Below, one piece after another: positions 21,251 to 28,782 of a stretch of DNA of 49,664 bases. The DNA lies in the NCBI GenBank assembly GCA_021827705.1, contig JAKAUQ010000031.1, positions 1-49,664 of the forward strand. The letters run 5' to 3'. This stretch comes from Actinomycetes bacterium. Its GTDB lineage: Bacteria > Actinomycetota > Acidimicrobiia > Acidimicrobiales > RAAP-2. Below the pieces are notes generated by a model. The model did not search any database. It was given only the letters and a program-made list of their open reading frames with translations, and had not been told where the DNA came from. Position 1 is the stretch's first letter; each line of letters begins with the position of its first letter. Made by a program: the position numbers and the translations under genes.

Positions 21251-22322
21251 CGTCCTGGACCGGCTGGTCGGCCAGGCGAGCGCGGCCGCGCAGGTCCGCC
21301 ATCACGTGCGCCGGCCGGTGCACGCGTACCTGCTCGTCGGGCCACCGGGCGTCGACCTGCACGAGGCGGCCACGGCCATGGCCGCGGCCCTGCAGTGCCC
21401 CGACGCGGGCTGCGGCACGTGTGAGACGTGTCGGCGCGTGCTCGAGGGCGTCGAGCCCGACGTCACCGTGATCGAGCGGGCCGGCACGACCTGGCGCGTC
21501 GACGAGCTGCGCGAGGCCGAGCGGGTGGCCCGTCGGCGCCCCCTGGGCGCGGGGTACCAGATCGTCATCATCGAGGACATCGAGTTGTCGGTCGCCGGCG
21601 GGGCCGCGACGGCGGCCACGCTGCTCAAGTCGCTCGAGGAGCCCCCCGAGCGCACCATCTTCCTGCTCACCGCCCGGGACCTGCTCGCCGAGCTCGAGAC
21701 CATCATCTCGCGCTGCGTCGTGATCCGGTGGCGGGCCCTCAGCCCGGACTCCCTGGTCGGCGCCCTGGAGGCCGAGGGTGCCGACCCGGTGGCCGCCCGG
21801 GCGGCCGCGGCCGCGGCCAACGGCGATCTGCGTCGGGCCCGGATCCTGGTGCGCGACCCGGCGCTGGCCGAGCGTCTGGAGGGCTGGCGGGGGATCCCGG
21901 CGCGCCTGCGCGGCGAGTTGAGTGCGGTGATGGGCCTGGTGGACGAGATCGAGCGGGGCCTGGATGCCGCGATGGCTCCTCTGGTCGCCTGGCAGAGCGC
22001 CGAGACCGAGCGACGACGCGCCGACGAGAAGGCGGTCGGCGCGCGAGCCACGCCGCGCCGCGAGATCGAGGCCGGTCAGCGGCGCGAGCAGCGGCGCTTC
22101 CGGGTCGAGGAGATCGCCTGGGGCCTGCGCGTGCTCGCGGAGGTCTACCGGGACCGCCTCGTCGAGGCGCTCGAGGACCCGGCCGGCTCGCGTGCCTCGG
22201 CGCGCGCCCGCTCCAGCCTGGTGGCGCTCGAGGCGGTCGCCGAGACCCACCGGCGTCTGGCGACCTCGATGGACGAGGTCCTCTTGGTGAGCGACCTGCT
22301 GATCTGCCTGGCCTCGGCCTAG
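21243..22322 (+). CDS. holB: DNA polymerase III delta-prime-like subunit
   Basis: A 359-residue AAA+-like clamp-loader protein. The Walker A position reads VGPPGVDLHEAA, so the Lys-Thr/Ser needed for ATP binding is missing, as expected for a delta-prime (non-ATPase) role. A zinc knuckle is present (CPDAGCGTCETCRR), and LKSLEEPPERTIFLL plus SRCVVIRW are the sensor/SRC-like region. It helps load the sliding clamp. The start is GTG at 21243, inside the end of tmk. The C-terminal third is Arg/Glu-rich and diverged. Confidence 0.85.
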   Translation: MPDVLDRLVGQASAAAQVRHHVRRPVHAYLLVGPPGVDLHEAATAMAAALQCPDAGCGTCETCRRVLEGVEPDVTVIERAGTTWRVDELREAERVARRRPLGAGYQIVIIEDIELSVAGGAATAATLLKSLEEPPERTIFLLTARDLLAELETIISRCVVIRWRALSPDSLVGALEAEGADPVAARAAAAAANGDLRRARILVRDPALAERLEGWRGIPARLRGELSAVMGLVDEIERGLDAAMAPLVAWQSAETERRRADEKAVGARATPRREIEAGQRREQRRFRVEEIAWGLRVLAEVYRDRLVEALEDPAGSRASARARSSLVALEAVAETHRRLATSMDEVLLVSDLLICLASA

Positions 22323-22344
22323 ACCGCTCGCGGGGCCGGTGCGG

Positions 22345-22350
22345 TAGTGT
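22345..22350 (+). promoter_or_regulatory. -10 box of tRNA-Thr
   Basis: TAGTGT ends 9 bases before the mature 5' end at 22360, so transcription would begin close to the tRNA itself. No good -35 is visible. Confidence 0.5.
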
Positions 22351-22359
22351 GTCGAGCGC

Positions 22360-22432
22360 GCCTGGGTAGCTCAGCTGGTAGAGCAGCGCATTCGTAATGC
22401 GCAGGTCAAGGGTTCGAATCCCTTCCCAGGCT
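22360..22432 (+). tRNA. tRNA-Thr (anticodon CGU)
   Basis: The acceptor GCCTGGG pairs with CCCAGGC. The D arm is GCTC/GAGC, the anticodon stem GCGCA/TGCGC encloses loop TTCGTAA (anticodon CGT), and the T arm is AAGGG-TTCGAAT-CCCTT. The discriminator is T; CCA is not encoded. Its last 27 bases overlap the 3' end of murD2 on the other strand. Confidence 0.95.
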
Positions 22433-23719
22433 CCCAGCCTCCCGCGCCGCGCGGGCGAAGTCCGCCGAGCGCTCCTCCCAGTTGCGGTAGCGGTCGAAGC
22501 TGGGCGCGGCGGGCGAGAGCAGTACCACGCCGCCCGCGGGCAGGAAGTCGCGCGACCGGACCACTGCCTGGTCCAGGTCGTCGGCCTCGACGACCATCAC
22601 GTGGGGGGCGCCGTGGCGCACCGCGGCCGCGATACGCGTACCGGCGGGCCCCGTGACGACCACCAGGGTGGGGGCGCCGCGACCCGCGAGGGCGCTGGCC
22701 AGCGGGGCGTAGTCGACGCCGCGATCGAAGCCGCCGGCGATCAGAGCGACGGGCTCGGCGGCAAAGACCGCGAGGGCGGCCACGGCCGGCAGTGGCGCGG
22801 TGGCCAACCCGTCGTCGACGTAACGCAGCCGTCCCCCCGGGCGGTCCTCGGTGGCCACCACGCTCAGGCGCCCGGGCAGGGGCACGAAGTGTGCCGCCCC
22901 CGCGGCCAGCGCGGCGGTGACGTCCGCCCGCGTCCGCCCGAGGAGCGCCGCCACGGCGGCCACGGCGACGCCGACGTTGCCGTCGTTGTGAGCGCCGGCC
23001 AGGTGCAGGGCACCGGCCAGCTCGATCGGGCCGGCCACCTCGACCGCACCGCCCAGCAGGTCGGCGCGGTCGAGCAGCTCGGGCTGGTCGGCGATCACGG
23101 TCACGTGGGGCCCGGCCGCGCGCGTCAGGGAGAGCTTGTCCGCGTGGTACTGGGCGAGCGAGCCGTGCCAGTCGAGGTGATCGGATCCGAGCGACGTGAT
23201 CGCCACCACCGCGGGAGCCCACTCGATCTCGGGGGCTTGGTAGCTGGAGACCTCGACGACCGTGTAGCCCGACCACGCGGTAAGAGCCGGGTCGTAGGGA
23301 GGCTGGCCGATGTTGCCCACGGCGCGCGCGGACTCGCCCAGGCACGCCAGGGCGTGGACGGCCAGGGCGGTGGTGGTCGACTTGCCCTTGGTGCCCGTGA
23401 CGGCGATGACGCGCGACCGGTTGGTCTCCCCGAACCAGAGGTTGAGTGCCGAGGTCACCGGGACCCGCTGGCGCAAGGACGCCACGTCGGCGCGCCGGCG
23501 CGCGATCCCGGGACCCTTCAGCACCACGTCGCAGGCGGCTAGCGCCTCCAGGCCCCCGTCGCCCGTCACCAGCACGCCGACCGCGGGATCGTCGTCGACC
23601 ACCACCACCTCGGCCCCCACGGACCGCAGCCGGGCCTCGGTGGCGTGGCCCTCGCGCCCGTAGCCGAGGACGCCCACGCGGCGCCCGGCCAGGTCAGCGA
23701 AGCCAGTGGGATGGAACAC
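22406..23719 (-). CDS. murD2: UDP-MurNAc-L-alanine--L-glutamate ligase (MurD2)
   Basis: A 437-residue Mur ligase of the MurD type. It shows the Rossmann-like start GRRVGVLGYGREG (12-24), the ATP loop TGTKGKSTTT, the SDHLDWHG block and the C-terminal LLSPAAPSFDRYRNWEER. Ordinary MurD adds D-Glu to UDP-MurNAc-L-Ala. In species with MurL, the partner MurD2 adds L-Glu instead, and the 26-base overlap with murL here makes that the likely reaction. Glutamate isomer is inferred from context. The last codons (GRDSNP) are the antisense of the tRNA-Thr T arm, so the C-terminus is unusual. Last gene of the zur operon. Confidence 0.82.
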   Translation of the reverse strand: MFHPTGFADLAGRRVGVLGYGREGHATEARLRSVGAEVVVVDDDPAVGVLVTGDGGLEALAACDVVLKGPGIARRRADVASLRQRVPVTSALNLWFGETNRSRVIAVTGTKGKSTTTALAVHALACLGESARAVGNIGQPPYDPALTAWSGYTVVEVSSYQAPEIEWAPAVVAITSLGSDHLDWHGSLAQYHADKLSLTRAAGPHVTVIADQPELLDRADLLGGAVEVAGPIELAGALHLAGAHNDGNVGVAVAAVAALLGRTRADVTAALAAGAAHFVPLPGRLSVVATEDRPGGRLRYVDDGLATAPLPAVAALAVFAAEPVALIAGGFDRGVDYAPLASALAGRGAPTLVVVTGPAGTRIAAAVRHGAPHVMVVEADDLDQAVVRSRDFLPAGGVVLLSPAAPSFDRYRNWEERSADFARAAREAGSLGRDSNP

Positions 23720-24977
23720 GGGTCTCTCCAGCGGGCTCGAGGAGGTCGGCGCCGTTATCCGGACCGAGCTCGGCGGCCAGCGCGGCCAGGTGGGTCACGG
23801 ACGCCCAGGTCGGATCGGCCGCCGCGCGCCGCAGGGCCGCCGCGCTCTCGGTGGGGTCGCCCACGCACTCGAAGGGCTTGGGCTCGTCGCCCAGCCCCAC
23901 CAGGGTGCGCAGCTGGTCGAGGCGAGCCGGATCGGCCAGGGGCTCGCTCCCGAAGATCGCGGCCAGGCGGTCGCGGGTCACGAAGGGGGCCAGCACCAGG
24001 TTGACGAACAGGCACTTGTCGCACTGGCCACACCACGTGCTCGCCCGGCGCGCGGGGTCCTGGGCGAAGGCCCGGTTGCAGCTGCGGAAGACGTCGTGGT
24101 AGCGGGTGAGGCGCGCGAAGCGCTCGGCCACCCACAGCTCGGAGCGGTCGCGCAGCAGGCTGGCCACGACCAGGCCGTCGCCCACCGACTCGGCCAGCGC
24201 CGCGGCGAGCAGCTGCTCGGCGGCCCACGACTTGCTCCACTGGTGGTTGACCGGGCGGCCCGCCCGGATCAGGTTGGGGGCCGAGGCCGAGCGCTCGTTG
24301 CTCATCACGACGCCGCCGCGCCCGCTGGCCGCCGCCGCGGTCGCGGCCAGGAGCGAGACCATGGCCGTGACCGGCACGTGGCCGCGCCACAGGCTGGGGT
24401 CGGCGACCAGAGCCGGGTCCAGGCGGCGCGAGGCACGCACGATGGGCCGGCCGGTGACGCGAGCGGTGGCCTCGAGCGCGGCGAAGGGGCCGCTGGCCGG
24501 GCTGACGACGAAGAGCGCTTGGTCGAGATCGGGGGGCAGCTCCTCCAAGGCGACGACGGAGTCGATCCCGCCGCCGAAGGGGACCAGCACCCGGCGGGGG
24601 TCGCCAGCAGCGACAGCGGGCTCCAGGGGCGCGCCGCCCGTGACGGCGAGGTCGGCCAGGTCCAGGTCGTTGCGCACGGCGAACTCGCCTAGCCCGTCGC
24701 GGATGGCCGCCGCCAGCAGGGCGCGGCCCGCCGGGCCGACCGGCGTCTTCGCCAGGTCGACGTGGCGCGCCGCCCCGGCCTTCAGGTACGACAGGCCGGC
24801 CACCAGGTACCACAGCGTGGCCACGGCCGCGGGCGCCGGGGCCCGCAGGTCCCCGGCGCCGGTGACGACGACCTCCTCGACGAAGGCGCGACCGTCCAGG
24901 TCGTAGTGGGCGCGCAGGACCTCGGCCTCGACCTCCAGGCCGCGGTACGCGAAGACCTCGGCGCGCGGGCGGCTCAC
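23694..24977 (-). CDS. murL: UDP-MurNAc-L-alanyl-L-glutamate epimerase (MurL)
   Basis: A 427-residue MurL-family protein. It contains a PP-loop-like FGGGIDSVVAL motif, the STWCGQCDKCLF cysteine cluster and the MSNERSASAPNL and VNHQWSKSW blocks. MurL uses ATP, releasing AMP and PPi, to invert the terminal L-Glu of UDP-MurNAc-L-Ala-L-Glu to D-Glu, replacing glutamate racemase in peptidoglycan synthesis; it was described in Xanthomonas. Adjacent murD2 supports the call. The GTG at 24977 overlaps the pgeF stop as GTGA. Being in a zur operon is unexpected. The family assignment is from remembered motifs, not from an alignment. Confidence 0.82.
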   Translation of the reverse strand: MSRPRAEVFAYRGLEVEAEVLRAHYDLDGRAFVEEVVVTGAGDLRAPAPAAVATLWYLVAGLSYLKAGAARHVDLAKTPVGPAGRALLAAAIRDGLGEFAVRNDLDLADLAVTGGAPLEPAVAAGDPRRVLVPFGGGIDSVVALEELPPDLDQALFVVSPASGPFAALEATARVTGRPIVRASRRLDPALVADPSLWRGHVPVTAMVSLLAATAAAASGRGGVVMSNERSASAPNLIRAGRPVNHQWSKSWAAEQLLAAALAESVGDGLVVASLLRDRSELWVAERFARLTRYHDVFRSCNRAFAQDPARRASTWCGQCDKCLFVNLVLAPFVTRDRLAAIFGSEPLADPARLDQLRTLVGLGDEPKPFECVGDPTESAAALRRAAADPTWASVTHLAALAAELGPDNGADLLEPAGETRVPSHWLR

Positions 24978-25720
24978 GAGGGCCCCCCATCGCGTCGCGC
25001 CACCAGGGCGACACGCCCCGTGGGGGCGCCGGCACGGTGCGAGAAGAAGAGCGCGCTGTCGTCGGTGACCGCGTCGAGCCGGTGGACCTGGGCGGGGTCC
25101 AGGCCCAGCTGGTGGAGCTGGGCGACCGCCACGGCCACCAGGTCCAGGCGCGAGCGGTCGCCCTCGTCGGGCGTGAGAGCGCCCGGGACGTCGGCGAAGC
25201 GCGCCGCGACCTCGGGGCCCACCGGGTAGCGCGCCGGCGAGATGCCCGGCCCGATCGCGGCGACCACGCGCCGGGGCGAAGCGAAGTGGGCGAGGGTCGC
25301 GGCCAGCACGCCGACGTCGAGCCCGCGCCACCCCGCGTGCACCACGGCGAAGCGGGGGGACTCCGGGTCGCACAGCACGATCGGCAGACAGTCGGCCACC
25401 AGCACCGCGAGGGCCAGGTCCTCGCGCTCGCACAGGAGGGCGTCGGCCGGGGCGGGGGCGCCCGGGGCGGCCCAGGCGACCTCGCGGCCGTGGCACTGGG
25501 CCATGGTGATCAGGGAGACCGGGGTCACGCGAGCCGCGGCCGCGACGCGGCGCCGGTTCTCGGCCACGCACGCGGGGTCGTCGCCCACGTGGTCGCCGAG
25601 GTTGAGCGTGTCGAAGGGGGCCGCACTGACGCCGCCGGCGCGGGTGGTGACGAAGGCACGCACCCCCGGCGTCCAGGCCGCCGGCAGGTCCAGCACGGGC
25701 AGCGCGCCCGAGGTGCTCAC
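24974..25720 (-). CDS. pgeF: laccase-domain protein PgeF (YfiH/YlmD family)
   Basis: A 248-residue multicopper-oxidase-like family protein that actually binds zinc. The metal ligands are the His of QCHGREV, the Cys of VADCLPIVLCDP and the His of VVHAGWRGLD. Family members act as purine nucleoside phosphorylase/adenosine deaminase and as an editing factor that removes wrongly made muropeptides with L-Ser at position 1, which fits the murL-murD2 genes downstream. The usual CCYEVG motif reads ARYPVG. The start is GTG at 25720, which overlaps the zur stop as GTGA; GTG at 25732 is an alternative. Confidence 0.85.
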   Translation of the reverse strand: MSTSGALPVLDLPAAWTPGVRAFVTTRAGGVSAAPFDTLNLGDHVGDDPACVAENRRRVAAAARVTPVSLITMAQCHGREVAWAAPGAPAPADALLCEREDLALAVLVADCLPIVLCDPESPRFAVVHAGWRGLDVGVLAATLAHFASPRRVVAAIGPGISPARYPVGPEVAARFADVPGALTPDEGDRSRLDLVAVAVAQLHQLGLDPAQVHRLDAVTDDSALFFSHRAGAPTGRVALVARRDGGPS

Positions 25721-26109
25721 CGGGCTCGACACGCGGGGCACCGCCCGGTCAGCTCGAGGACGTGGGCGAGGTCGTCGTAGCCGGTGCGCTCGCCCAGCTC
25801 GGCGGTGAAGCGCTCCAGGAACGGGGCATCGATGTCGACGGTCGCCCCGCACTCCCGGCACGAGAGGTGGTGATGGTGGGCGTCGGTCGTGCAGCGCCGA
25901 AAGAGGCTCTCGCCGCGCTCGGTCATGACGACGTCGACCTGGCCGGCCGCCGCCAGGCGGCGCAGCTGGGCGTAGACCGTGGCCAGCGACACGGGAGTGC
26001 CCTCGCGCACGACGACGCTGTGCAGGTCTCGCGCGCTGATGAAGCCCGCCGTGCGGGCCAACCCGTCGAGGATCGCGCGCCGCTGGGCGGTGTTGCGCTC
26101 GGTGGCCAC
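25717..26109 (-). CDS. zur: Fur-family repressor, probably Zur
   Basis: A 130-residue Fur-family regulator: a winged helix in the first 80 residues, then the metal-binding AHHHHLSCRECG motif and a second CPAC pair, giving the structural C4 zinc site. Zur represses zinc uptake when zinc is plentiful. It is divergent from znuACB, and two palindromes lie between them. The GTG at 26109 sits 6 bases after TACACT, predicting a leaderless mRNA. It heads a four-gene operon with pgeF, murL and murD2. Fur or Mur identity is less likely because the adjacent transporter ATPase has a His-rich tail. Confidence 0.88.
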   Translation of the reverse strand: MATERNTAQRRAILDGLARTAGFISARDLHSVVVREGTPVSLATVYAQLRRLAAAGQVDVVMTERGESLFRRCTTDAHHHHLSCRECGATVDIDAPFLERFTAELGERTGYDDLAHVLELTGRCPACRAR

Positions 26110-26115
26110 GAGGTC

Positions 26116-26121
26116 AGTGTA
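26116..26121 (-). promoter_or_regulatory. -10 box of the zur operon (leaderless)
   Basis: TACACT on the minus strand, 6 bases before the GTG at 26109. The first Zur-like palindrome (26141-26153) would cover the -35 region, so the operon may repress itself. Confidence 0.5.
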
Positions 26122-26132
26122 TCCCCGCGCGG

Positions 26133-26161
26133 TTGCAATACAGAACGATTCCAGATAACAT
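26133..26161 (+). promoter_or_regulatory. znuACB promoter
   Basis: -35 TTGCAA (26133-26138), a 17-base spacer and -10 TAACAT (26156-26161). The ATG of znuA at 26169 is 7 bases further on, so the mRNA is leaderless. Zur-like sites flank the -10. Confidence 0.7.
26141..26153. promoter_or_regulatory. degenerate Zur box
   Basis: It matches the perfect palindrome at 26165-26177 at 10 of 13 positions and lies exactly 24 bases upstream, in the znuA promoter spacer and over the zur -35 region. Confidence 0.5.
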
Positions 26162-26164
26162 ACG

Positions 26165-26177
26165 TGGAATGATTCCA
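26165..26177. promoter_or_regulatory. Zur box overlapping the znuA start codon
   Basis: TGGAATGATTCCA is a perfect 13-base palindrome about its central G, resembling the actinobacterial Zur consensus of the form TGaaAATcATTttCA. The znuA ATG lies inside it, just downstream of the -10, so bound repressor would block initiation. Confidence 0.65.
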
Positions 26178-27107
26178 GTCTGGAGACGCGGGGCGGCGCT
26201 GGCCGCGGCGGGGGCCCTGACCCTGGCCGCCGCGGGGGCCCTGACCCTGGCCGCCAGATCCGGGTCCGGCTCCGGGGTGCCGTCCGGGCCTAGTCGTCGC
26301 GTCCCGGCACGCCCGCTCATCGTGGCGGGTGTCTCGGAGTGGGCGGCGCTGGCCCGCGCGGTCGCGGGGCCCGACGCGAGGGTGGTGTCTCTCTTGAGCG
26401 ACCCCAACGCCGACCCCCACAACCACGAGGCGACGCCGGCCGACGCCGCGCACGTGGCCCAGGCGACGCTCATCATCGAGAACGGTGCCGGCTACGACGC
26501 CTGGCTGTCCCAGCTGGTAGCGGCGCGGTCCCAGCCCGTCGCGGTGATCGACGTGGCCCACCTGATGCACGTGACGACGGGCGAGAACCCCCATCTGTTC
26601 TACGACCTGACCGCGACGCGCCGCCTGGTCGCCGCGCTGGCCGCGCGCCTGCGGTCGCTCCCGAGCGGCCCGGCGATCGTCCGGCGCGCCCGGCGCGTCT
26701 CGGGCGAGCTGGCGGGCCTGGCGGCCCAGGTCCGGGCCATTCGGCGAGGCTGCGCGGGCGTGCCCGTGGCCGCTACCGAGGACGTGGCCACCTACCTGCT
26801 CTTGGCGATGGGGCTGCACATCGTGACGCCCGAGCCGCTGCGCCTGGCGATCGGCAACTCGGTCGACCCCTCGATTCACGACCTGGCACTGGCCCTGGTG
26901 CAGCTGACCCACCACCCGGCCCTGCTCATCGACAACGTGCAGACGGCGACGCCGCTGACCCAGGAGATGGTCCACGTGGCCCAGGTCCACCAGGTGCCGG
27001 TGGTCCGCATCACCGAGACATTGATCGGCACCAGCGACGTGGCCCAGCTGCGCCACGTGATCGGCGAGCTGCGCCACGCACTGCACAAGGAGGGATGCGC
27101 ACCATGA
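26169..27107 (+). CDS. znuA: zinc ABC transporter substrate-binding protein
   Basis: A 312-residue cluster A-I binding protein that captures zinc outside the membrane. Likely ligands are His in DPHNHEA, His in GENPHLFYD and the acidic residues further on. It has a signal peptide but no lipobox cysteine, so anchoring is unclear. The signal core is a perfect 24-bp tandem duplication. ATG at 26169 is placed by the promoter; an upstream in-frame ATG at 26133 lies in the -35. It is coupled to znuC by an ATGA overlap. Confidence 0.88.
   Translation: MIPVWRRGAALAAAGALTLAAAGALTLAARSGSGSGVPSGPSRRVPARPLIVAGVSEWAALARAVAGPDARVVSLLSDPNADPHNHEATPADAAHVAQATLIIENGAGYDAWLSQLVAARSQPVAVIDVAHLMHVTTGENPHLFYDLTATRRLVAALAARLRSLPSGPAIVRRARRVSGELAGLAAQVRAIRRGCAGVPVAATEDVATYLLLAMGLHIVTPEPLRLAIGNSVDPSIHDLALALVQLTHHPALLIDNVQTATPLTQEMVHVAQVHQVPVVRITETLIGTSDVAQLRHVIGELRHALHKEGCAP
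26208..26255 (+). repeat. 24-bp perfect tandem repeat in the znuA signal sequence
   Basis: 26208-26231 and 26232-26255 are identical and in frame, doubling AGALTLAA in the hydrophobic core. It is probably a slippage product and lengthens the core by 8 residues. Confidence 0.85.
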
Positions 27108-27955
27108 GCGTTCTCGAGCTTCACGACGCTGCTGTCACGCTGGATCGCCGCGTGATCTGGCGGGAGGCGTCGTTCCGCCTGGAGCGCGGCGCGGTCGCCG
27201 CGGTTCTGGGCCCCAACGGGGCCGGCAAGTCCACGCTGCTGCGCGCCGTGGTGGGCCTGGTGCCCCTGAGCGCGGGCACGGTGACGGTCTTTGGGGCGGC
27301 GCCGCACCGGGGCGACCCGCGGGTCGGCTACGTGGCCCAGTCGCGGGCGGCCGACACCCTGTCCACCATGACCGGCCGGGACTACGTGGGCCTCGGCTAC
27401 GACGGGCCGACGGTGGGATGGCGCCGGGACCGCGCGCGCGCCGAGATCGTGACGCGGGCCCTGGCCCTGACGGGGACGACCACCTTCGCCGACCGACCGA
27501 TGCACACGCTGTCGGGCGGGCAGCACCAGCGCATCGCCATCGCCCACGCCACCGTCTTTCGTCCCGAGCTGCTGCTGCTCGACGAGCCCCTGGCCGGGCT
27601 GGATCTCGCCGCCCAGGCCGAGGTCGTCGACCTGATCAACCTGGTGCGCGACCAGACGGGTGCGGCGGTGTTGGTCGTGGCCCACGACCTCAACCCGCTG
27701 GCGCCCATCGTCGACCGGGTGGTGTGGATCGCGCGCGGCCACGTCCGCTGCGGCAACCCCGACGACGTGGTGAACGAGGCGACGCTGAGCGAGCTCTACG
27801 GTCATCCCATCGAGATCGTCCACACGGCGCGCGGGCGCCGGGTGATCGTGGGCCTGGACGAGGAGTTCGCCCACCCGCACCCCCACGGGCACGTCCACGA
27901 GAACGAGGACCCCCACACCCACCTGGCCGAGGTCTACGACGAGGTGACGCGATGA
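27104..27955 (+). CDS. znuC: zinc ABC transporter ATP-binding protein
   Basis: A 283-residue ABC ATPase. Walker A is GPNGAGKST, the signature is LSGGQ, Walker B is LLLLDEP and the H-loop is VVAHDL. The C-terminus has a His-rich stretch (HPHPHGHVH, then HTH), typical of zinc systems and probably a zinc sensor or store. The ATG at 27104 follows AAGGAGG at 9 bases and overlaps the znuA stop; an ATG at 27095 is too close to that site. The 3' end overlaps znuB as ATGA. Confidence 0.93.
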   Translation: MSVLELHDAAVTLDRRVIWREASFRLERGAVAAVLGPNGAGKSTLLRAVVGLVPLSAGTVTVFGAAPHRGDPRVGYVAQSRAADTLSTMTGRDYVGLGYDGPTVGWRRDRARAEIVTRALALTGTTTFADRPMHTLSGGQHQRIAIAHATVFRPELLLLDEPLAGLDLAAQAEVVDLINLVRDQTGAAVLVVAHDLNPLAPIVDRVVWIARGHVRCGNPDDVVNEATLSELYGHPIEIVHTARGRRVIVGLDEEFAHPHPHGHVHENEDPHTHLAEVYDEVTR

Positions 27956-28782
27956 GCCTGACGACCCTGCTGGGCTTCTCCTTCGTCCAAAACGCCATCT
28001 ACGCGGTTACCGCGGTGGCCCTGGCCGCCGGGGCGGTGGGCTACTTCGTGGTGCTGCGGCGCCAGGCCTTCGCCGCCCACGCCATTGGCCATATCGGCTT
28101 CGCCGGGGCCGCCGGGGCCGTCCTGCTGGGCCTGGCCCCCGTCGTGGGGCTGCTCGTCTTCTGCCTCGGCGCGGGACTGGTTATCGGCCTGGCGGGCGCC
28201 ACCCTGGACGACCGCGACGCGGTCGTCGGAGTGACCCTGACGGCCGCCTTGGGTCTCGGCGTGCTGTTCATCTCCCTGTACAGCGGCTACGCCAACGCGA
28301 CGTACTCGATCCTGTTCGGCCAGATCCTCGGCGTCACGACCGGCGACGTCTGGCTGGTGGCCGGCCTGTCGGCCGCCGTGCTGCTCACGGTCTCCCTGGT
28401 CTACCGACCCTTGCTGTTCGTGTCGGTTGACGCCCAGTCGGCCGCCGTGCGGGGCGTCTCGCCGATGTCCTACTCGGTGCTGTTCATGGGGCTGCTGGCC
28501 CTGACCACGGTCGTCGCCATCCAGATCGTGGGCGTTCTGCTGGTCTTCGCCCTGCTCGTGGCGCCGGCGGCCACCGCGGCGGCGCTCACGGGCCGACCGG
28601 CCCGCGCGATGCTCCTGGCGATGGCTCTGGCCCTGGCCAGCTCCTGGATCGGCCTGGCGCTGGCCATCTGGATCGGGGGGCCGACCAGCTTCTGGATCAC
28701 GGCGCTGGCGTCGCTGGGCTACCTGGGGGCCCGAGTCCGCCTGCGCGTCGGCCAGGCCCACGGCCAGCGCGTCGCGGCCTAG
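27952..28782 (+). CDS. znuB: zinc ABC transporter permease
   Basis: A 276-residue integral membrane protein of the ABC-3 family with about eight hydrophobic segments. It forms the zinc channel with znuA and znuC products. The family cytoplasmic loop motif that meets the ATPase lies around [11 protein letters not shown]. It ends with TAG at 28780-28782, and that stop codon is also the first half of the tilS -10 box. Confidence 0.92.

Follow-up and report, generated by a model that had tools for sequence, protein, structure and literature searches.

The closest described counterpart of the genes considered here is the pathway of Xanthomonas oryzae in which MurD2 adds L-Glu and MurL then epimerises it, with ATP being converted to AMP and activation of the alpha-carboxylate having been proposed for the MurL reaction (PMC8788868). 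Two other described proteins bear on MurL, namely, QatC, whose Zn2+ site is made up of C334, C354, C357 and C360 (PMC13279940), and QueC, the function of which requires zinc (PMC13329287). On the regulatory side, the Zur box of Streptomyces coelicolor reads tGaNNatSatNNtCa (PMC5472717). Here, these systems are compared with the zur-pgeF-murL-murD2 gene string carried by the window, i.e., the whole 49,664-nucleotide stretch of Actinomycetes bacterium DNA that was analysed. It is judged fairly probable that this string is an operon holding the apparently sole MurL route to D-Glu under Zur, with MurL itself being a zinc enzyme, a reading based on sequence and comparison, specifically on gene overlaps, alternatives that were not found, a predicted fold, invariant cysteines and conserved operators.

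The first-pass annotation had described zur, pgeF, murL and murD2 as tightly overlapping between positions 22406 and 26109. All four genes were confirmed, each on the minus strand, with overlaps of 4 nt (GTGA), 4 nt (GTGA) and 26 nt along the string. Both GTGA overlaps were thus as described, whereas the 26 bases correspond to an overlap between murL and murD2, rather than to a gap. These genes and the relevant parts of MurL are as follows:

zur, 26109..25717, minus strand: Fur-family zinc uptake regulator of 130 amino acids (PF01475, 5.7e-24)
pgeF, 25720..24974, minus strand: YfiH-type peptidoglycan-precursor editing amidase of 248 amino acids (PF02578, Cu-oxidase_4, 5.6e-60; TIGR00726, 126.8 bits, below the cut-off of 141)
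murL, 24977..23694, minus strand: MurL (NF041275, 5.4e-87; model with a predicted local distance difference test score, pLDDT, of 96; QatC, Z 18.8; QueC, Z 13.6)
murD2, 23719..22406, minus strand: MurD-like ligase of 437 amino acids, predicted to add L-Glu (TIGR01087, 1.7e-67, above cut-off)
MurL PP-loop GGGIDS, residues 135-140, 24558..24575, minus strand: near-invariant set of columns in 128 MurLs
MurL predicted zinc site, C300 x15 C316 xx C319 xx C322, 24012..24080, minus strand: Cys in 128/128
MurL C371, 23865..23867, minus strand: fifth invariant cysteine, with a possible acid/base role

The match of MurL to NF041275, a model named after Xanthomonadales, covered residues 12-422, with the 292 bits obtained lying below the curated cut-off of 700. 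When an AlphaFold2 model of the protein (pLDDT 96; predicted template modelling score 0.94) was compared with solved structures by VIA-align, QatC ranked first (Z 18.8, 314 residues aligned, root-mean-square deviation 3.8), followed by QueC (13.6 and 13.5), Cap9 (13.3) and then argininosuccinate synthase (9.6). The match to QatC reached into the N-terminal part of MurL as well, and QatC was also the sole match under 0.001 when the model was submitted to Foldseek. An alignment of 128 MurLs was next considered, comprising that of the window, those of 47 other whole-genome loci and those of 80 named-genome loci, with some genomes being duplicated and with Xanthomonadales and Micromonospora being included. 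G135, G137, D139 and S140 were invariant in all 128 sequences (G136 in 123), C300, C316, C319 and C322 were each Cys in all 128, and C371 was Cys in 127, the remaining sequence presenting a gap. The MurL loop reads GGGIDS and not the SGGxDS of QueC, the first Ser being replaced by Gly in 128/128 MurLs, while the C(x)15CxxCxxC motif differs in its first spacing from the C(x)8CxxCxxC of QueC, as does that of QatC.

As such, MurL would appear to belong with the QueC/QatC-like PP-loop adenylating enzymes and to carry a predicted four-cysteine zinc site, and a fold of this type fits the published ATP-to-AMP reaction. Zinc would be expected to occupy the site. Since MurL is QueC/QatC-like and presents such a site, the likely zinc-dependent step is that catalyzed by MurL, i.e., epimerisation. 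The first-pass annotation had found it not evident which step depends on zinc, a point that can now be sharpened to MurL by the invariant QueC-type cysteine site. PgeF was also considered for this role but was dropped, as the word 'metal' is absent from those portions of the YfiH structure paper that were covered (PMC8844914). PgeF does keep the residues aligned with YfiH Q69, H71, D89, C107, H124 and R235, to which catalytic and recognition roles have been assigned (PMC8844914).

The window genome (1.78 Mb, 97% complete) was examined for other sources of D-Glu. Neither the Asp/Glu racemase family that includes MurI (PF01177) nor a Dat-like D-amino-acid transaminase was found in this genome, in which the only class-IV transaminase is an IlvE-like protein of 309 amino acids adjoining a leuB-like frame (both names having been read from the frames). 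The Mur ligases detected were MurC, MurE, MurF, MurT, FolC and MurD2; no second MurD was found in the genome, leaving MurD2 as the only MurD-type ligase detected. The earlier proposal is therefore supported in that MurL and MurD2 appear to stand in for MurI and MurD, with neither a separate murI nor a canonical murD having been found in the genome.

The distribution of these genes is in agreement with such replacement. Of the 148 genomes sampled from the class, the 11 belonging to the window's family all contained murL, as opposed to 2/137 others, whereas PF01177 was present in 3/11 and 102/137, respectively. Among 100 sampled family genomes, 92 contained murL (68 of the 69 of good quality) and 10 contained a PF01177 protein over cut-off, with such matches outside the genus being in G149, G156, G164, G166 and G198. 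PF01177 proteins occurred in 5 of 27 genus genomes; a MurI hidden among these was considered and rejected, as the four scanned (all but that of G226) were of the aspartate/amino-acid racemase type, one of them showing a weak glutamate racemase match (2.3e-07). A relative from the same order (G141) presented neither MurL nor PF01177. Describing the route as rare thus needs qualifying, given its presence in 92/100 family genomes and given that a scan of named genomes returned at least 593 MurL pattern matches, at least 583 of which were confirmed relatives. The closest named-genome loci among the matches listed came from metagenome-assembled genomes labelled Acidimicrobiaceae, Acidimicrobiales, Actinomycetes or actinobacterium. 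As a separate observation, eight genomes of about 1 Mb from f15, a different family of the class, each at least 90% complete (G005, G011, G017, G025, G029, G033, G037 and G041), contained neither PF01177 nor a MurL match, while the less complete f15 genomes G097, G116, G132 and G147 do carry PF01177.

The specificity of MurD2 was next addressed. At the four positions located near the Glu site by work on X. oryzae, the window protein presents Asp180, Arg333, Pro406 and Phe408, where the X. oryzae enzyme presents Glu, Arg, Pro and Phe. In the X. oryzae protein, the E197D and R358K replacements each altered specificity, whereas changing Pro433 or Phe435 left it unaltered (PMC8788868). Across 120 aligned MurL-linked ligases, the Glu197 equivalent is Asp in 81, Glu in 38 and Cys in 1; Asp is found in 45/45 aligned rows of the window's family, where Asp together with Arg is the rule, while the rows from Xanthomonadales and Micromonospora usually combine Glu with Arg. 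The equivalent of E. coli Lys319 is Leu305 in the window protein and Leu, Ile or Phe in all 120 ligases, and loss of this lysine is proposed here, and not taken from print, as a possible mark of the MurD2 family.

Alternatively, murD2 could encode an ordinary MurD that adds D-Glu supplied by an unrecognised enzyme, with MurL doing something else. Asp180 corresponds to the E. coli residue, and Arg333 is also found in the MurD of Streptococcus mutans, which uses D-Glu (PMC8788868). Moreover, as E197D altered the specificity of the X. oryzae enzyme, Asp180, found where the characterised MurD2 has Glu197, counts against a simple transfer of function. Counting against this alternative are the loss of the Lys319 equivalent, as the K319T change renders L-Glu acceptable to E. 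coli MurD (PMC8788868), and the agreement of Pro406 and Phe408 with X. oryzae MurD2. It must also contend with the pairing of murL with murD2 in 88/88 loci and with MurI, Dat and another MurD not having been found in the window genome, and is accordingly considered very improbable. The window MurD2 would instead be expected to use L-Glu.

Indeed, murD2 adjoins murL in each of the 88 whole-genome loci, the window counted, and in 77 of 80 named-genome loci, two of the misses being at contig ends. The third, L147, from a Xanthomonas sp. metagenome-assembled genome, contains murL, yet about 6 kb of sequence to each side of it yielded no murD2. In L027 (8454-10883, minus strand, genome G009), murL and murD2 are joined without a stop into 810 codons of open frame, apparently encoding a naturally fused MurL-MurD2 in which Cys occupies the Glu197/Asp180 position. 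The window's family also includes another deep MurL-MurD2 lineage, one presenting neither pgeF nor a recognised zinc locus (L051, L053, L061, L066, L067, L193-L197 and L199-L207); in five aligned members, Pro replaces Phe at the Phe408 position.

Of the 21 genus groups sampled within the family, 16 presented the order pgeF-murL-murD2. In the window genome (G000), the division/wall cluster lies elsewhere, on contig C11 (L235, 5843-14724), and contains rsmH, an ftsI-type penicillin-binding protein gene, murE, mraY, ftsW, murG, murC, murB, ftsQ, ftsZ, a yggS-type gene and sepF. Here, murD is absent between mraY and ftsW and pgeF is absent between ftsZ and yggS, the frames of which overlap. By contrast, in 29/29 other class loci, ftsZ lies at most 1.5 kb before pgeF, with yggS following pgeF in 28 (the exception being at a contig end); a single pgeF is present in the window genome and in 38 of 45 sampled class genomes, and loci were available for 30 of these 38, with that of the window being left out. 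Since both murD and pgeF are missing from the division/wall cluster, it would appear that pgeF and the MurD function both moved beside murL. The MurL/MurD2 genes thus comprise a relocated and, judging from the gene content of the genome, apparently sole route to the D-Glu of peptidoglycan. In Kineosporia babensis (L106) and Solirubrobacter phytolaccae (L132), pgeF also adjoins murL-murD2, preceding murL in one and following murD2 in the other, such that the association of pgeF with this pair is wider than the zinc link.

On the other side of zur, znuA, znuC and znuB diverge from it across a 59-base gap, with tilS lying beyond them. The features of this region are as follows:

Zur-box-like palindrome 2, 26142..26152, no strand: the zur-proximal of the two
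Zur-box-like palindrome 1, 26166..26176, no strand: spans the likely znuA start codon
znuA, 26169..27107, plus strand: zinc-binding protein of an uptake ATP-binding cassette (ABC) transporter (PF01297, 8.7e-28), the start codon being our choice
znuC, 27104..27955, plus strand: ATPase with a His-rich C-terminal tail (PF00005, 4.1e-26)
znuB, 27952..28782, plus strand: permease (PF00950, 1.7e-50; AztB, 1.5e-38, below cut-off)

The zinc ARRANGEMENTS survey covered 87 whole-genome loci and the window, 86 of these 88 being from the window's family and two from other families (L026 and L027). Lone matches to ZnuC at 27-35% identity, unaccompanied by znuA or znuB, were taken to be other ABC ATPases and were not counted (L053, L058, L067, L175, L190, L195, L196, L200, L205, L206 and L207), and some loci, such as L051 and L194, offered little upstream sequence. 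Among the 25 genus loci, znuABC diverged from a zur that precedes pgeF in 15, co-directional genes for a ZIP transporter and Zur were present in 6, zinc genes were absent in 3 and one locus was too short. As such, zur directly precedes pgeF-murL-murD2 in 21 of the 24 assessable genus genomes, with murL having been retained next to zur in these relatives. In the ZIP-led zip-zur-pgeF-murL-murD2 loci (L019, L021, L022, L080, L082 and L083), ZIP takes the place of znuABC, its identity resting on PF02535 in the one of the six that was scanned. In the rest of the family (61 loci), a window-like znuABC/zur arrangement was seen in 8 (pgeF being set off by about 1.4 kb in one of these), a znuA operon diverged from pgeF with no zur between them in 5, co-directional znu genes lay upstream in 3, and 3 were too short to judge. 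Three of the five divergent loci also contain znuC, znuB and zur, while two stop at contig ends. A tree calculated by a quick method from 88 concatenated MurL-MurD2 rows required seven changes between zinc-linked and not among the pgeF-bearing rows and four changes for the ZIP arrangement, at least three of the latter on starred branches. As the tree is unrooted, gain and loss of the zinc linkage cannot be told apart on it.

The solved chains nearest to the window Zur are S. coelicolor Zur (3mwm, 1.1e-30) and Mycobacterium tuberculosis FurB (2o03, 2.5e-28), the next Fur-type chain being at 7.1e-12. A regulator that senses manganese or iron, making the operon metal-linked but not zinc-linked, could be proposed from the NCBIfam equivalog scores, which are weak and far below cut-off for all Fur-type models, the E. 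coli-type Zur model being outscored by those for Fur and PerR. Yet the two actinobacterial Zur structures lead by some 16 orders of magnitude, and ZIP replaces znuABC in six relatives in which published Zur boxes are found, arguments that render this proposal highly unlikely and that favor a zinc-sensing Zur.

The published S. coelicolor box was found at 10-11 of 11 positions in 6/6 ZIP-led operons and in 5/5 loci in which znuA diverges from pgeF; in these five, which belong to another genus, it separates the two genes. The same box was found in none of 26 pgeF loci without zinc genes, in none of 21 loci without pgeF, and in 0.46% of random stretches taken from these loci; the motif came from print, yet boxes had already been seen in some of the ZIP-led and znuA/pgeF loci. 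Two of the three loci with co-directional znu genes were scored, reaching 6 and 7 of 11. In the window, the candidate operator comprises a pair of GGAATCATTCC-like palindromes at a distance of exactly 24 bp, and tandem palindromes matching at 12 or more of 14 positions and 24 bp apart were found in 15/15 genus znuABC loci and in 0.58% of random stretches. Because this form and spacing were picked after the sequences had been inspected, the random rate is a guide and not a clean test. The tandem is the only neighboring pair of exact GGAATNRTTCY matches in the window genome; a search there for a wider Zur regulon returned only two more places, of which one is close to where a contig stops and the other falls within an open frame, with no zinc gene recognised in the listed frames. 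At the level of the genus, the conservation of operators resembling Zur boxes supports the earlier suggestion of zinc-responsive control, and pgeF-murL-murD2 is likely transcribed under Zur in most of the genus.

In the mechanism proposed, zur-pgeF-murL-murD2 would be one translationally coupled and presumably co-transcribed operon. MurC would make UDP-MurNAc-L-Ala, PgeF would clear the wrong L-Ser product, MurD2 would add L-Glu, and MurL would activate the alpha-carboxylate with ATP and invert L-Glu to D-Glu. Zinc-loaded Zur would bind the two palindromes between zur and znuABC, repressing both sides, with this binding, as well as the direction and size of the regulation, being inferred. As zinc falls, the uptake genes and zur-pgeF-murL-murD2 would rise together, such that enough of a zinc-requiring MurL would be kept working. 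Given that the apparently sole D-Glu genes stand in one string with a zinc sensor and that one of them encodes what looks like a zinc enzyme, zinc supply and wall building may be directly linked, and zinc may tune wall synthesis. It is plausible that control by Zur matters because MurL needs zinc. The fuller claim, that zinc status gates a cytoplasmic precursor step through MurL, a zinc enzyme of QueC/QatC ancestry made from a Zur-repressed operon, is offered tentatively and with considerable doubt.

Several observations weigh against this reading. A search of PDB sequences with MurL, whether as a single sequence or as a 47-row profile, yielded nothing useful and no QueC-type solved chain; a Pfam scan of 47 MurLs at E values up to 5, in which HMMER filters remove most matches above 0.1, returned 11 families, with PF06508 not being one of them; and PADLOC returned no QueC or QatC match for three MurLs. 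With these searches being empty, the kinship of MurL to QueC and QatC is drawn from the predicted fold. Zinc is not mentioned for MurL in those portions of the two reviews covered. Turning to the operators, that of the window matches the published S. coelicolor box at 5 of 11 positions at best, and a score of 10 was attained by just one of the 23 znuABC/zur loci, meaning that this type of locus is without the published box; the tandem form of the genus was, in turn, seen in none of the 8 znuABC/zur loci outside it. Finally, 23 of the 61 family loci outside the genus present pgeF-murL-murD2 without zinc genes, 19 present neither pgeF nor a zinc locus, and 3 of the 24 assessable genus genomes have no zinc genes next to murL. 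Two of these three contain a pair of Fur-family genes at other sites, and the third a short piece of such a gene, such that Zur may still be encoded in them. The idea of a Zur-led wall-precursor operon is thus better supported within the genus, where zur is kept in 21/24 and operators are conserved, than outside it, where many loci are without zinc genes.

As another explanation, the genes could simply be neighbors, with pgeF-murL-murD2 having left the division/wall cluster and landed behind zur, the overlaps reflecting compaction and zinc being irrelevant to wall synthesis. Zur would then regulate zur and znuABC, with the murL-murD2 transcript arising through weak repression or from promoters inside zur. 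The 26 pgeF-bearing loci (3 in the genus and 23 outside) with neither zinc genes nor a published Zur box and the small, compact genome are in line with this explanation, as is the consideration that a cell could not survive the full shutdown of an essential route. Against it stand the recurrence of zinc genes beside the module (divergent znuABC and zur, ZIP-zur, a znuA operon divergent from pgeF, and znu genes in front), the placement of Zur boxes where they could act on the module in the ZIP and znuA/pgeF types, and the conserved zinc-type site in MurL. On these grounds, mere adjacency is regarded as possible yet rather doubtful. For the Zur-controlled operon favored here, an essential gene could not be fully off in zinc-rich medium, and regulation must therefore either be mild or be supplemented by promoters lying within zur. 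The existence of relatives that bear the module without zinc genes and this essentiality are the strongest contrary facts, both being as compatible with an operon under mild autoregulation as with a link that serves a purpose.

An assignment of MurL to the QueC/QatC fold would offer a testable mechanism, involving PP-loop adenylation, a zinc with either a structural or an active-site role and possible acid/base catalysis by Cys371, as well as a structural frame for MurL inhibitor work. The main text of a 2026 QueC-family survey contains neither 'peptidoglycan' nor 'epimerase', and no publication treating MurL as QueC-like, or murL with zur, was found in the part of the open-licence literature listings considered. 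If true, MurL and QatC would represent two uses of one two-domain adenylating scaffold, namely, peptide-residue inversion and phage defence. Whether zinc limits wall precursor supply in bacteria without MurI also becomes a testable question.

Other features of the region were noted. From the flank opposite zur, topA (named from its frame), tmk, holB and the following tRNA gene converge on murD2:

tRNA-Thr(CGT), 22360..22434, plus strand: convergent with murD2 (ARAGORN)

The final 29 bases of murD2 (22406-22434) are antisense to this tRNA gene, such that the C-terminus of MurD2 is encoded by tRNA-gene antisense. The C-terminal tail of ZnuC (27104-27955) is histidine-rich (HPHPHGHVHENEDPHTH), which seems unusual for the ATPase subunit of an ABC transporter. 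A pattern scan of positions 22300-26400 returned no promoter-like or terminator-like sites, a result that says little, as shuffled sequence also yields almost none (means of 0.0 and 0.4).

Compared with the MurD2-MurL pathway of X. oryzae (XOO_1320/XOO_1319), for which the Micromonospora and Salinispora counterparts have been assayed too, the window shares a murL gene adjoining that of a MurD-like ligase, MurI and Dat that were not found, the invariant MurL residues, the Arg358, Pro433 and Phe435 equivalents and the missing Lys319 equivalent. It differs in having Asp for Glu197 and in having pgeF and zur precede murL, a zinc link being unmentioned for that pathway in the portions of the reviews covered. 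With QatC, QueC and Cap9, MurL shares a predicted fold (Z 18.8, 13.6 and 13.3), a PP-loop and a four-cysteine site with two CxxC steps, but no sequence relationship detectable with Pfam, PADLOC or PDB searches. Its PP-loop starts with GGG and not SGG, its C(x)15 spacing contrasts with the C(x)8 of QueC or the longer spacing of QatC, and its chemistry is that of an epimerase, whereas theirs involves nitriles or deazaguanine. With the actinobacterial Zur regulon, as in S. coelicolor, Corynebacterium glutamicum and M. tuberculosis, the window shares the Zur sequence, znuABC as probable target and a palindromic candidate operator with a 1-bp center, the number of boxes at znuA being two, as it is in S. 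coelicolor (PMC5472717). However, the genus operator, GGAATCATTCC, is without the outer TGA/TCA, and the operon includes wall-precursor genes expected to be essential. Lastly, in the case of ShyB of Vibrio cholerae, as in that of the window, a zinc-starvation regulator stands over a cell-wall gene; ShyB, however, is a wall hydrolase resistant to ethylenediaminetetraacetic acid, whereas the window genes make precursor, with one encoding a predicted zinc protein (PMC6381278).

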